The position numbers and the translations under genes are program-made. The notes below the pieces were generated by a model. The model searched no databases and had not been told where the DNA came from. It saw only the letters and a program-made list of their open reading frames with translations. 32,217 bases of DNA, from NCBI GenBank assembly GCA_947165345.1, contig CAMVAA010000011.1, positions 1-32,217 of the forward strand, written 5' to 3'. This document shows, piece by piece, positions 14,635-24,456 of the stretch. How positions within the stretch are numbered: the stretch's first letter is position 1; every line of letters begins with the position of its first letter. The DNA comes from an uncultured Bacteroidales bacterium (lineage in GTDB: Bacteria; Bacteroidota; Bacteroidia; Bacteroidales; P3).

Positions 14635-14667
14635 CCTCTCTACCCCCTCTCTACCCCTTCTCTACCC
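14635..14667. repeat. 33-bp C/T-rich repeat, copy 2
   Basis: Identical over 33 bp to 1657-1689. On the minus strand it shows G-runs of 5, 4 and 5 spaced by TAGAGA, with a fourth run of only two G. It lies in the intergenic region upstream of the secreted-protein/dxs genes. Confidence 0.8.
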
Positions 14668-14807
14668 CCAACCACCGTTCCGGAGGGCCAAAATCCGACA
14701 TCCTCCCCGTCCACGTTCCATCTCGGCCTCACACCCGCTTTTTCACTGTTTTACATTATTTTTATCGCATTGCAAAATAAAACATCACAAGGCGCGTTTC
14801 ATATCTT

Positions 14808-17682: not shown

Positions 17683-17860
17683 AGCAATCATCTTATTGTC
17701 AAAACCCAAACCATGTAGGGGTTTCATCTTAATAGCAATCCATCTGATTGTCAAAGCCCAAACCCCGAAGGGGTTTCATTTTAATAGCAATCCATCTGAT
17801 TGTCAAACCCCAAACCCTGTAGGGGTTTCATCTTAATAGCAATCATCTGATTCGCTTAAT
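17683..17860. repeat. Tandem ~52-bp palindromic repeats (three full copies and one partial)
   Basis: Copies at 17683-17733, 17734-17785, 17786-17837 and a 23-nt remnant at 17838-17860. Each full copy runs AGCAATC...ATTGTCAAA...CCCAAACC...GGGGTTTCAT.TTAAT. The middle is a small hairpin: in copy 2 AAACCCCGAAGGGGTTT is a perfect 7-bp stem with a GAA loop, and copies 1 and 3 keep a shorter stem with a TGTA-type loop. There are no unique spacers, so this is not a CRISPR array. It resembles short dispersed palindromic (REP-like) elements and may help end the dxs transcript. Confidence 0.85.
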
Positions 17861-18058
17861 CACACCGACCCTTTCCCCACGACCCCAATCCACCCAATAT
17901 CGGGGTTATGTTAAATAGAAATATTTCACACACCCTCATTCTCCCTCCCCGAAAAAAAATCCGCAGGGCTCGCTCCTTCAAAACCCTGCGGAAAAATAAC
18001 TCTTAACTTATAACTCATAACCCATAACCCATAACCAATAACCCTTAACTCATAACTC
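17861..18058. other. Rest of the gap between convergent dxs and thioesterase genes
   Basis: Between the palindromic repeats and the thioesterase stop. It holds a short C-rich stretch, the minus-strand terminator at 17951-17991 and most of the heptamer tract at 18002-18071. No coding potential was seen. Confidence 0.7.
17951..17991 (-). terminator. Rho-independent terminator of argS-thioesterase
   Basis: An 8-bp stem CCGCAGGG / CCCTGCGG (17961-17968 with 17984-17991) with a 15-nt loop. Read on the minus strand it is followed by ATTTTTTTT. It lies about 70 nt beyond the thioesterase stop, past the heptamer tract. Confidence 0.85.
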
Positions 18059-18071
18059 TTAACTCATAACT
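18002..18071. repeat. Heptanucleotide tandem repeat, ten units
   Basis: Ten consecutive 7-bp units of the form NNTAAC(T/C), mainly CATAACC, CATAACT and CTTAACT, with no phase break over 70 bp. It has no G on the plus strand. Its right end overlaps the last codons of the thioesterase gene, and the TAA stop at 18061-18059 is part of a repeat unit. Confidence 0.9.
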
Positions 18072-18790
18072 CTGATCTTCGCCAGCGCGCTGAGCCCCGT
18101 GCTGTTGGTCACCTGGGCGCTGTACGTGCTCTCGTCGTCGCGCCGCACATACACCGCCACCGTGTCGCCCGGTTTGGTCTCGTGCTGGAAATTGAGTTCT
18201 ACCGAGAACGGCCGCGTCTCGTCGAATCCCTGCTCGTGGAGCGCGTCGAAAATCCACTTTATGTACTCCGAGTTGTTGACGTGGTTGGTGTGGTCTATCA
18301 TCGAATGGCGTGTCGTCATGCTGAAAGCCCTGTCCTCGTCGGTGAACGGCGCCACTCTCAGCCTGTCGAGGCTCTGGCGCTCTGTGGCGCACTCGTCGAC
18401 CACGGTATAGGCTTGTATGTGGTCCTTCAGCCGCACAGCGCGGCGCTGGGTGTAGTCTATCAAGGTCCAGTACGACGTGCCGCGCAGCAGCTCTTTCCCC
18501 TCGGCGTCGAACATCGAGTAGTCGCGGAAGGCGAACAGTCCGTCGTTGCCGCGCGCCCATGTGTTGAGCTCTACGGGTTCGAAGGCTCGCGGACGGCGAA
18601 GCAGCTCGTAGTACGACCTGACGATGACCCACGCCAGGTTATTGTCGATGAGGCTGTTGAACCCCACTCCGAGTTTGTTGGCATGGTATTCCGAAACCTC
18701 TTGGCAGAGTCTGACCGCCGCCCACGTGTGCATCACGTCGGCAGAGTCGCAGAGGTACGACGGTATGTCGTTGTGTATCGTGTGTTTCAT
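18059..18790 (-). CDS. Acyl-ACP thioesterase (FatA/FatB-like, double hot-dog)
   Basis: A 243-residue protein of the bacterial acyl-ACP thioesterase family. It has two hot-dog halves: the first (about 1-130) with LGVGFNSLIDNNLAWVIVR and RGTSYWTLIDYTQRRAVRL, the second (about 150-240) with HSMIDHTNHVNNSEYIKWIF, which contains the conserved D.N.H.NN..Y pattern of the active half. It releases free fatty acids from acyl-ACP in the cytoplasm; no signal peptide is present. The start lies 4 nt after the argS stop, so the two genes are one unit. The last residues (RVMS) and the stop codon are encoded by the heptamer repeat. Chain-length preference is not predictable here. Confidence 0.9.
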   Translation of the reverse strand: MKHTIHNDIPSYLCDSADVMHTWAAVRLCQEVSEYHANKLGVGFNSLIDNNLAWVIVRSYYELLRRPRAFEPVELNTWARGNDGLFAFRDYSMFDAEGKELLRGTSYWTLIDYTQRRAVRLKDHIQAYTVVDECATERQSLDRLRVAPFTDEDRAFSMTTRHSMIDHTNHVNNSEYIKWIFDALHEQGFDETRPFSVELNFQHETKPGDTVAVYVRRDDESTYSAQVTNSTGLSALAKIRVMS

Positions 18791-21604: not shown

Positions 21605-22819
21605 ATGTCGTTCGAACAGTTTGTAGCCAAGCGTTTCATGCCCCGTCGTGGCAACGACAGCGGCTTCTCGGGCCCACTGTCTCGGATTGCTGTGGCCGCC
21701 ATCGCCCTCGCCATCCTGGTGATGGTCATGGCCGTGAACATCCTCCACGGATTCCAGCACCATATCGCAGAGAAGGTGTCGGCATTCGGAAGTCACATCA
21801 CCGTCGAAAGCTACGCCGGCGGTCAAGGCTACGAGGGCGAGTTCCCCATCGTGGCAGACAGCCTCACGTGGAACACGCTCGCCGCCACGGAGGGCGTAAA
21901 GCACGTGCAGTGCTATGCCACCAAAGGCGGTATGGTGAAGACCGAGGACCAAATCTACGGCATTCTGCTGCGCGGTCTCAGCCCCGGCTACGACACCTCC
22001 TTCTACGCCACCTGCCTGAAAGATGGACACCTGCCCGTCGAAGACAACCAAGTGCTCGTCTCCGCCACCATAGCCTCGCGGCTGAAGCTGCACACTGGCG
22101 ACAAGATGCGCACCTACTTCTGGCAAGGCGACAACTACCGCGCTCGCGCCTTCACCGTGTCTGGCATCTACAGCACCGACCTCTCAGAGGTCGACGACCA
22201 TTGCGTCCTCGGCACCCTGCATACCGTCCAGCGGCTCAACGACTGGGACGACAACCAGGTCGGCGGCTACGAACTCCTCATCCACGACATGGACCGCCTG
22301 GATGCCGTCACGGCCAGTGTCCGCGCCGCCATGCCCTACCACCTCGGCATACACAACGTCGTCGAGGCCAACCCCGCCCTCTTCGCATGGCTGGACCTCC
22401 TGAACAGCAACATCACACTCATTCTCGCCATCATGTGTGTCGTATGCGCCGTGGCCATCGTCTCGGCAATGCTCATCATGATCTTCGAGAAGCGCAGCAC
22501 CATCGGCCTGCTCAAAGCCCTCGGCGCAAGCTCCAAGTCCGTCCGTAAGATATTCATCATCAAAGGCATTGAGGTCATCCTCAAAGGCATCCTCATCGGC
22601 GACATCCTCGCGCTGGCCCTGAGCCTCGTACAGCTGAAATGGCAGCCTGTCAGACTCGACCCCGAAAGCTACTCCATGTCCCACGTCCCCGTCGAAATCG
22701 ACCCCCTCGTCTACGCCGCCGTCAGCATCGGCGTCGCCGTCCTCTGTCTCGCCGCACTCCTCCTCCCCGCCTCATACATCGCCAAAACCTCCCCCTCACT
22801 CACCACCCGCGAACAATAG
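21605..22819 (+). CDS. ABC transporter permease, LolE/FtsX-like
   Basis: A 404-residue protein from ATG 21605 (MSFEQFVAKRFM); the track start at 21476 lies inside tpiA. Layout: one N-terminal membrane helix (about 20-45, IAVAAIALAILVMVMAVNIL), a large periplasmic MacB/LolE-type domain (about 46-265), and three C-terminal helices (about 272-300, 320-345 and 368-393) that form the FtsX domain. This fits the inner-membrane lipoprotein-releasing complex (Lol) permeases, which extract lipoproteins for delivery to the outer membrane. No ATPase (LolD) or second permease lies in the window, so the partner must be elsewhere. Third-position C usage is very high. The stop is immediately followed by a 117-nt stretch without G. 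Confidence 0.9.
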   Translation: MSFEQFVAKRFMPRRGNDSGFSGPLSRIAVAAIALAILVMVMAVNILHGFQHHIAEKVSAFGSHITVESYAGGQGYEGEFPIVADSLTWNTLAATEGVKHVQCYATKGGMVKTEDQIYGILLRGLSPGYDTSFYATCLKDGHLPVEDNQVLVSATIASRLKLHTGDKMRTYFWQGDNYRARAFTVSGIYSTDLSEVDDHCVLGTLHTVQRLNDWDDNQVGGYELLIHDMDRLDAVTASVRAAMPYHLGIHNVVEANPALFAWLDLLNSNITLILAIMCVVCAVAIVSAMLIMIFEKRSTIGLLKALGASSKSVRKIFIIKGIEVILKGILIGDILALALSLVQLKWQPVRLDPESYSMSHVPVEIDPLVYAAVSIGVAVLCLAALLLPASYIAKTSPSLTTREQ

Positions 22820-22866
22820 CCCCACCACTCCCCCCCCAAACCCCAACCCAAAAACCCCAACCCCCC

Positions 22867-22901
22867 AACCCTAACACCTAAACCTTAAACCCTACCCCTT
22901 A
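22867..22901. repeat. Heptanucleotide tandem repeat upstream of the histidine kinase
   Basis: Five 7-bp units all ending in TA: AACCCTA, ACACCTA, AACCTTA, AACCCTA, CCCCTTA. It lies inside the G-free region 22820-22936 and runs into the place where the kinase gene should begin. Confidence 0.75.
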
Positions 22902-24406
22902 AACAACCCCTCAAACTCCTAATCCTCCTCCTCACCGTCGCCCTCGCCCTCCTCGCCCTGTGGCAGGGTCAGACCGTCGCCGACCAGGTCCGCCAGAGCG
23001 AAGAGGCCAAAGTGCGCCTTTGGGCCGCCGCCATCGAACAGCGCAGCAATATGGTTGGTGCCACCCAGCGCTTCTTCGCACAGGCCACCCTCGACGAGCA
23101 GCGCAAAATGAAACTCTACACCGACATACTCCAGTCCTTCAACGACCCTGACCTCTCTGCCGACCTCCGCTTCAGCCTCGCCTACGTAAACTACATCGTC
23201 GACAGCAGCCACACCCCCATCATCATCACCACCGCCAAAGACTCCGTCATCACCGTCCCTCAAGAACTCGCAGGACAGAAACTCAGCGGACAGCTCCTCC
23301 AGGAATACAGCGTCAACAAGCCCTACACCTACAACCTCTGGGGCATGCCCATGACACTCTACTATAAAGAGTCCGAGAACTACACCCAGCTCCGCGATGT
23401 CCTCGACAGCTTCGTCGGCTCCTTCCTCTCCGACATCACACAGAACTCCGTCCTCGTACCCGTCGCCATCGTCGACAGCTCCCGCACACAGCTCCTCGCC
23501 TTCGGCAACCTCGACTCCTCACAGTTCGACACCGAGGCCAAACTCGCCGACCTACTCCAGAGCATGGCCAGCCACAACGACCCCATCCAGCTCACCCTCC
23601 GCGACCGCCCCATCTTCGTCTACTACTCCCCCACCCCTCTCCTCCGCTCCCTCCGCTGGCTCCCTATCTTCTACATCTTCATCGCCGCCGTCCTCCTCCT
23701 CGTCAGCTACTACCTCTTCCGCACCTCCCGCACCATGGAGCAGAACCGCATCTGGGTCGGCCTCGCCAAAGAAACCGCCCACCAGCTCGGCACTCCCCTC
23801 TCCTCCCTCCTCGCCTGGACCGAATACCTACGCGGCAAACAATTCACCGACGAATACGCCTCCGAAGTCGAAAAAGACCTCCACCGCCTCGAGACCGTCG
23901 CTCACCGCTTCTCCAAGATAGGCTCCCTCCCAGAACTCAAAGACCAGGACGTCCGCGCCGCCACCCTCGACGCCGTCCAGTACCTCCAGAGCCGCTCCCC
24001 TCGCCGCGTCCGCTTCGTCGTCTCCTTCCCAGACGACCAGCAGTTCACCGCTCCCCTCAACAGCTACCTCTTCCAGTGGGTAATAGAGAACCTCTGCCGC
24101 AACGCCATCGACGCAATGGACGGCAACCCCGCCGACGGCGACCGCCAGAGCGTCGTCTCCATCGTCGCCTCTCAGGACGCACGCAACATCTACATCGACG
24201 TCTCCGACACCGGCCGCGGAATGACGCCCGCCGTCCAGCGACACATCTTCGACTCCGGCTTCTCCACCAAAAACCGCGGCTGGGGCCTCGGCCTCCCACT
24301 CGCACAGCGCATCATAAACCAATACCACCGCGGGAAGCTATACCTCAAATACTCCCTCCCCGGCCAAGGCTCCACCTTCCGCATCGTCCTGAAGAAGAAA
24401 ACCTGA
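22898..24406 (+). CDS. Membrane sensor histidine kinase (start codon not canonical)
   Basis: The track begins at GTG 23012, but the frame is open upstream to 22889 and encodes KQPLKLLILLLTVALALLAL, a convincing N-terminal membrane helix, so the gene must begin earlier. I set the start at the CTT at 22898, directly before AAA CAA; this is inference, because no ATG, GTG or TTG exists between 22820 and 22936. From there the protein has about 502 residues: helix 1 (about 5-24), a periplasmic sensor region, helix 2 (about 250-272, WLPIFYIFIAAVLLLVSYYLF), then the phospho-acceptor segment ETAHQLGTPLSSLLAW with its His near 292, N-box NLCRNAIDAM, DTGRGM and GWGLGLPLAQRI of the ATPase domain. No clear HAMP motif and no response regulator nearby. 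Third codon positions are almost all C. Confidence 0.85.
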   Translation, partial: LKQPLKLLILLLTVALALLALWQGQTVADQVRQSEEAKVRLWAAAIEQRSNMVGATQRFFAQATLDEQRKMKLYTDILQSFNDPDLSADLRFSLAYVNYIVDSSHTPIIITTAKDSVITVPQELAGQKLSGQLLQEYSVNKPYTYNLWGMPMTLYYKESENYTQLRDVLDSFVGSFLSDITQNSVLVPVAIVDSSRTQLLAFGNLDSSQFDTEAKLADLLQSMASHNDPIQLTLRDRPIFVYYSPTPLLRSLRWLPIFYIFIAAVLLLVSYYLFRTSRTMEQNRIWVGLAKETAHQLGTPLSSLLAWTEYLRGKQFTDEYASEVEKDLHRLETVAHRFSKIGSLPELKDQDVRAATLDAVQYLQSRSPRRVRFVVSFPDDQQFTAPLNSYLFQWVIENLCRNAIDAMDGNPADGDRQSVVSIVASQDARNIYIDVSDTGRGMTPAVQRHIFDSGFSTKNRGWGLGLPLAQRIINQYHRGKLYLKYSLPGQGSTFRIVLKKKT

Positions 24407-24428
24407 TCCCTCCCCCACCAAGACTCCA

Positions 24429-24456
24429 CCACTTACCACTTAACACTTACCACTCC
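24429..24456. repeat. Short heptanucleotide repeat after the histidine kinase
   Basis: Four 7-bp units: CCACTTA, CCACTTA, ACACTTA, CCACTCC. Located 23-50 nt after the kinase stop; like the other heptamer tracts it has no G on the plus strand. Confidence 0.6.

Follow-up and report, generated by a model that had tools for sequence, protein, structure and literature searches.

The gene for a sensor histidine kinase in an uncultured, gut-type Bacteroidales bacterium was found to have no canonical start codon at the position where its close relatives start, and that position is covered by the last unit of a G-free tandem array. The reading that we prefer, and that we hold from sequence comparison with about even confidence, is that the array recently absorbed the start codon and that synthesis of the full-length kinase in this lineage would be very weak or absent. 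The window, by which we mean the whole stretch of DNA that was analyzed, comprises positions 1-32,217 and constitutes the 32-kb contig CAMVAA010000011.1 of assembly GCA_947165345.1.

Permease and Kinase Genes

The features of the region are listed below with their coordinates in the window and their strand.

21605-22819, plus: LolC/E-like (FtsX/MacB-type) ABC transporter permease gene (Pfam FtsX, MacB_PCD)
22820-22936, plus: G-free stretch, consisting of an intergenic repeat and the first 13 conserved kinase codons
22820-22844 and 22847-22871, minus: two G-quadruplex motifs at the level of the pattern (regular-expression match only)
22833-22904, plus: decayed tandem array with a period of 7/14 nt (CCCCAAACCCCAAC; CCTAAACCTTAAAC), from TRF
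22886-22888, plus: TAA, the last in-frame stop upstream of the kinase frame
22898-22900, plus: CTT, the codon opposite the start (ATG or TTG) of close relatives
22898-24406, plus: sensor histidine kinase, otherwise intact (HATPase_c, hydropathy, translation)
22922-22924, plus: ATC, kinase codon 9, a candidate weak start from the sequence
23012-23014, plus: GTG, the first canonical in-frame start, from which the product would have no first membrane helix

The permease open reading frame was listed from GTG 21476 and ends with the TAG stop at 22817-22819; its likely start is ATG 21605. The NCBIfam model lolCE matches the permease with an E value of 1e-48, yet the match falls under the cut-off of the model. 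The kinase frame is open from 22889, as the preliminary description of this DNA had stated, to the TGA at 24404-24406, and its first canonical start is GTG 23012, followed by ATG 23051. The product has a Pfam match to HATPase_c (E = 4.8e-18), an H-box-like sequence (HQLGTPLSS, found by eye in the translation), and two membrane helices, from hydropathy, that flank an extracytoplasmic region. The ATPase domain, the H-box, and the two helices together identify it as a sensor histidine kinase. The first helix, which had also been proposed from the sequence, is strongly hydrophobic (mean Kyte-Doolittle value of 2.37 over 19 residues). Matches in the PDB are confined to the kinase core and do not inform the N-terminus. 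No second full copy of the kinase was listed for the genome, and the other match shown from the same genome is weak (E = 1e-6).

Composition of the G-Free Stretch

The plus strand was confirmed to have no G, and no ATG, GTG, or TTG, at exactly 22820-22936. This run of 117 nt is the longest of its kind in the window; the runner-up (82 nt, 17992-18073) is also a period-7 array. When the window was simulated 100 times with a first-order Markov model, the longest G-free run had a mean length of 31.6 nt and a maximum of 49 nt, which rules out a chance origin. The 117-nt stretch had been treated as a single object, and this holds for the absence of G throughout; in its makeup the stretch is an array of approximately 78 nt of intergenic repeat joined to 39 nt of ordinary, conserved coding sequence.

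Up to 22936, the G-free coding bases specify a portion of KQPLKLLILLLT, and they do so with codons poor in G. The probability that kinase codons 2-13 have no G is ~0.05 by the codon usage of the kinase gene itself and ~0.0002 by the usage averaged over the sampled genes, and codon usage suggests that the coding part of the stretch is G-free mainly through codon choice.

In the remainder of the stretch, TRF reported repeats at 22833-22884 and 22877-22904, each with a period of 14. Across 22820-22910, the identity at a lag of 14 was 0.69, a value that was matched by 0 of 2000 shuffles, and the lag of 7 gave P = 0.005. The final units of the array are CCTAAAC CTTAAAC CCTACCC CTTAAAC, the last of which (22898-22904) lies over the site of the start codon. 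The array therefore reaches the aligned kinase start position, where there is no canonical start. An ungapped search of 22780-22960 gave no inverted or further repeats, and a search of 22600-23200 against Rfam at gathering scores gave no known RNA element.

Relatives of the Kinase

At E <= 1e-100, the kinase was detected in 107 of 120 genomes from the genus, this genome counted. The public matches include a contig of 'Candidatus Colimorpha pelethequi', and the other named matches are mostly rumen Bacteroidales MAGs. The closest relative that was compared is 76% identical in the kinase protein. Close relatives begin with MKQRLKLI(V) or MKQKLKLI, and in a gap-free alignment their ATG lies opposite CTT 22898, which supports the earlier suggestion that CTT AAA CAA was once an MKQ start. 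All 105 distinct N-termini of relatives have, in the open frame, a canonical start ahead of the first helix, and the window sequence alone lacks one; at the aligned codon itself, relatives carry a canonical start where the window sequence has CTT. ATG is the start closest to the aligned position in 85 of these N-termini, GTG in 11, and TTG in 9. Twenty-eight of the 105 were inspected, among them those with arrays and most of those whose start is GTG, TTG, or distant, and the inspected N-termini whose nearest start was internal had another start further upstream.

Kinase codons 2-41 are 60-78% identical to those of the relatives, with the fewest changes at the second position and the most at the third. 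This coding-type pattern of substitution means that translation of the N-terminus lasted through most of the period since these lineages diverged and either ended recently or continues.

A kinase of 464 residues could be initiated at GTG 23012, with the first helix gone and both localization and signaling altered. This codon is a canonical start, a gene caller reports the open reading frame that begins with it, and the catalytic domain would be complete. However, all of the relatives start upstream, and none begins at the residue encoded by GTG 23012, which the preliminary description had offered as a possibility. At the codon opposite GTG 23012, 21 of 43 relatives have GTG too, and the others have ATA, ATT, ATC, or another valine codon. 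The structure predicted around GTG 23012 is strong (-20.0 kcal/mol, vs a mean of -8.9 for the starts of the 43 relatives), and the sensor region of a protein without the first helix would probably be cytoplasmic. We consider this start very unlikely to be the one in use.

The junction between the permease and kinase genes in some relatives is often a 4-nt overlap. Other relatives have a gap of about 46-79 nt that contains heptad arrays of varying unit and strand, and such gap arrays were found in L003, L004, L033, L034, L041, and L044. The units of four of them are as follows.

L004: gagttat
L033: ctaattt
L034: aaaattg
L044: tatcaac-like

A G-free array directly abuts the TTG or GTG start in L243 and L246. 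TTG is the aligned codon in L003 and L041, each with an ATG further upstream, and it is the sole start in L243. Across species of the genus, the permease-kinase gap thus holds unrelated heptad arrays (L004, L033, L034, L044, L243, and L246), and arrays have therefore been gained repeatedly at this site or their units turn over quickly. By this comparison, the window seems to continue the series of arrays near the start by one step.

The permease and kinase genes of the window lie in one frame with only TAG 22817 and TAA 22886 between them, and readthrough of the permease stop and of the following TAA would give a permease-kinase fusion. Two readthrough events would be required, however, the linker would consist of repeat sequence, and in the relatives the two genes remain separate, each with a start of its own. 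A fusion of this kind is extremely improbable.

Heptad Arrays in the Genome

G-free intergenic arrays (C-free on the other strand) with 7-bp units such as AACTCTT, AACCCAT, AATTTTC, and AAACCTT are plentiful in this genome and reach a maximum of 313 nt. Examples are listed here.

Window: 17992-18073 and 24428-24454
L093: 3493-3805
L102: 3519-3788
L091: 8526-8790
L095: 1209-1388

A count over 793 kb of this genome gave 61 runs of 60 nt or more that have no G on one strand or the other, and the best lag is 7 or 14 in 46 of them. The relative G023 has 36 such runs, G-free or C-free, in 1.08 Mb. The units CTTAAAC/CCTAAAC of the kinase gap recur at L091 8526-8790 and L100 10479-10552, and the unit class is therefore shared with other loci of the genome. 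With a period of 7/14, an intergenic location, and unit classes found elsewhere in the genome, the array upstream of the kinase belongs with the G-free heptad arrays of the genus. The units that contain TTAA give stops in all frames of both strands, since a length of 7 is not divisible by 3.

In 867 kb of this genome, 9 G-free runs extend up to the G of a start codon with at least 100 open codons behind it, and in 1.08 Mb of G023 there are 17; these are mixed sets, in which A-rich leaders qualify as well as heptad arrays. One start-touching run has the CTTAAAC unit of the kinase gap (L100 10479-10552, ccttaaaccttaaacctta followed by ATG). Heptad arrays often abut start codons, and therefore a start can be expected to be lost to one of them now and then.

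Quality of the Local Sequence

The main rival to start loss is a local sequence error or a strain mixture, in which the true genome would have a canonical start and one or two of the assembled bases would be wrong. The assembly is a draft of 124 contigs that is 74% complete, and the array is a stretch of low complexity. Two contigs of this genome (C7 and C18) begin with approximately 50 nt of nearly pure G (L093 1-51 and L103 1-50). Long G runs at contig starts are presumably a sign of two-color Illumina artifacts, and these two are probably a sequencing artifact that was built into the assembly. If the true start were TTG, one missing base would suffice. Against an error, the stretch lies inside a 32-kb contig, the array is shorter than the usual read, and the missing base would fall outside of any homopolymer. 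False G calls alone cannot turn ATG into CTT, which on the minus strand needs T to G plus C to A. An error or a mixture of strains is judged to be unlikely.

Proposed Loss of the Start Codon

In the preferred reading, the stretch is one of the heptameric, G-free intergenic repeats of the genus and is located between the LolC/E-like permease and kinase genes. The array would have grown into, or been homogenized across, the kinase start, whose place would now be inside a CTTAAAC unit. A TTG start in front of AAAC could become a CTTAAAC unit by the loss of one G (CCCTTGAAAC to CCCTTAAAC), and an ATG could do so by two substitutions. Slippage or homogenization with the neighboring unit is a plausible route. 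The array is degenerate, and we infer the step from a repeat unit to the lost start. As the kinase gene is otherwise intact, the loss would be recent compared with the split from the known relatives; an intact downstream frame is equally expected from a functional non-AUG start.

The full-length kinase might be made at a low level from a non-AUG start, either ATC 22922 or CTT 22898, with the help of an unstructured, G-free leader. The predicted folding energy is 0.0 around both codons, vs the mean of -8.9 for the starts of 43 relatives, and low structure favors initiation in Bacteroidota, a group devoid of Shine-Dalgarno sites (PMC6847099). The conserved N-terminus is also consistent with such a start, and ATC 22922 is the sole codon one base away from ATG between the opening of the frame and the middle of the first helix. 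In Flavobacterium johnsoniae, adenines at positions 0, -3, -6, -12, and -13 favor initiation (PMC6847099). The sequence at CTT 22898 has none of these adenines and the codon is two bases away from ATG, and efficient initiation there is predicted to be unlikely for these two reasons. Initiation at ATC would keep most of the helix but drop the two lysines that precede it. Natural non-AUG starts do exist, an example being the AUU of Escherichia coli infC, which would be a precedent for the use of ATC 22922; however, an ATC start is not conserved in the relatives. Such a start, with a non-AUG codon kept in that role, was found neither among the 105 distinct N-termini of relatives nor in any other sampled gene. 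In the reconstructed histories of 61,358 ancestral AUG starts of bacteria, two changed to CUG and one to AUU (PMC5622118). Switches to non-NUG starts are very rare by these numbers, and the loss of the start is therefore favored over a tolerated switch. We regard low-level synthesis from ATC 22922 or CTT 22898 as distinctly unlikely.

The start codons of 216 non-overlapping, ortholog-like pairs from sampled stretches of this genome and G023 were scanned for losses; some of the pairs are off-frame open reading frames, and the real genes are fewer. The scan flagged 21 of the 216 pairs, and by eye the kinase alone has a conserved N-terminus without a canonical start. The other flagged pairs are off-frame open reading frames or have a canonical start near that of the relative. 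With no second case recognized in the sampled pairs, which cover part of the genome, a genome-wide use of non-canonical starts is unsupported.

The interpretation in the preliminary description, with its three outcomes (a non-AUG start, destruction of the start by repeat expansion, and initiation at GTG 23012), is partly supported. The gap arrays of the relatives and the arrays that end at starts elsewhere make repeat expansion the best supported of the three, and a working non-AUG start of the kinase is improbable.

Comparison with Known Repeats and Start Switches

Direct repeats of the heptamer TAACTGA have been described from marine Beggiatoaceae, Cyanobacteria, and five Bacteroidetes; they are intergenic, and many of them lie immediately 5' of start codons, over the expected ribosome-binding region. 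A role in translation was proposed as a hypothesis (PMC4679880). The arrays reported here are likewise intergenic tandem arrays of 7-nt units in the same kind of place. Unlike the TAACTGA repeats, their units are G-free, varied (AACTCTT, AATTTTC, AACCCAT, and AAACCTT classes), and found in both orientations, and one array appears to have replaced the start codon itself. The kinase array contains no G and was not assigned to the TAACTGA repeats.

Long simple sequence repeats of prokaryotes, heptamers among them, are the subject of PMC4692102, which describes G-quadruplex-forming heptamers in Xanthomonas and Nostoc. The arrays of this genome resemble those heptamers in their period of 7, their mostly intergenic location, and a G-rich complementary strand with two quadruplex-like patterns (at the level of the pattern), but the units are different.

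The kinase resembles the start-codon switches of PMC5622118 in that an ancestral NUG start would have been replaced in one lineage. In contrast to those switches, CTT is not a recognized start and coincides with a repeat unit, which looks like a loss. A literature search for the loss of start codons to tandem repeats found nothing.

Significance of the Arrays

If the sequence is right, the kinase gene is a clear natural case of a simple-repeat array that erased the start codon of a regulatory gene. The relatives and the window would then form a graded series, from no array, to an array near the start, to an array touching a GTG or TTG start, to a start that is gone. The case would further suggest that uncultured gut Bacteroidales have many heptad arrays at translation starts, and the effect of these on expression is directly testable. 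For annotation, gene callers would start the kinase at GTG 23012 and give a protein without the first helix.

Across the genus, G-free heptad arrays that are gained, are lost, or slip next to starts might constitute a tunable or switchable control of translation; the kinase would then be in an off or low state, or would use a non-AUG start in a G-free leader without structure. We consider this extension highly doubtful.

Other Repeats and Regions

A second class of repeats, with the 11-bp unit CCCTCTCTACC, was found in the window at 1656-1689 and 14635-14669 and also at L101 9798-9891 and L094 17389-17446. The window contains, in addition, a tandem array of a 52-bp unit at 17683-17852 (3.3 copies, 90% alike). 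The region L175 997-17478 of this genome and L143 2091-16384 of G023 are 85-98% identical even in off-frame translations, which is well above the usual level; either a mobile element common to both genomes or a misplaced contig may be the cause.
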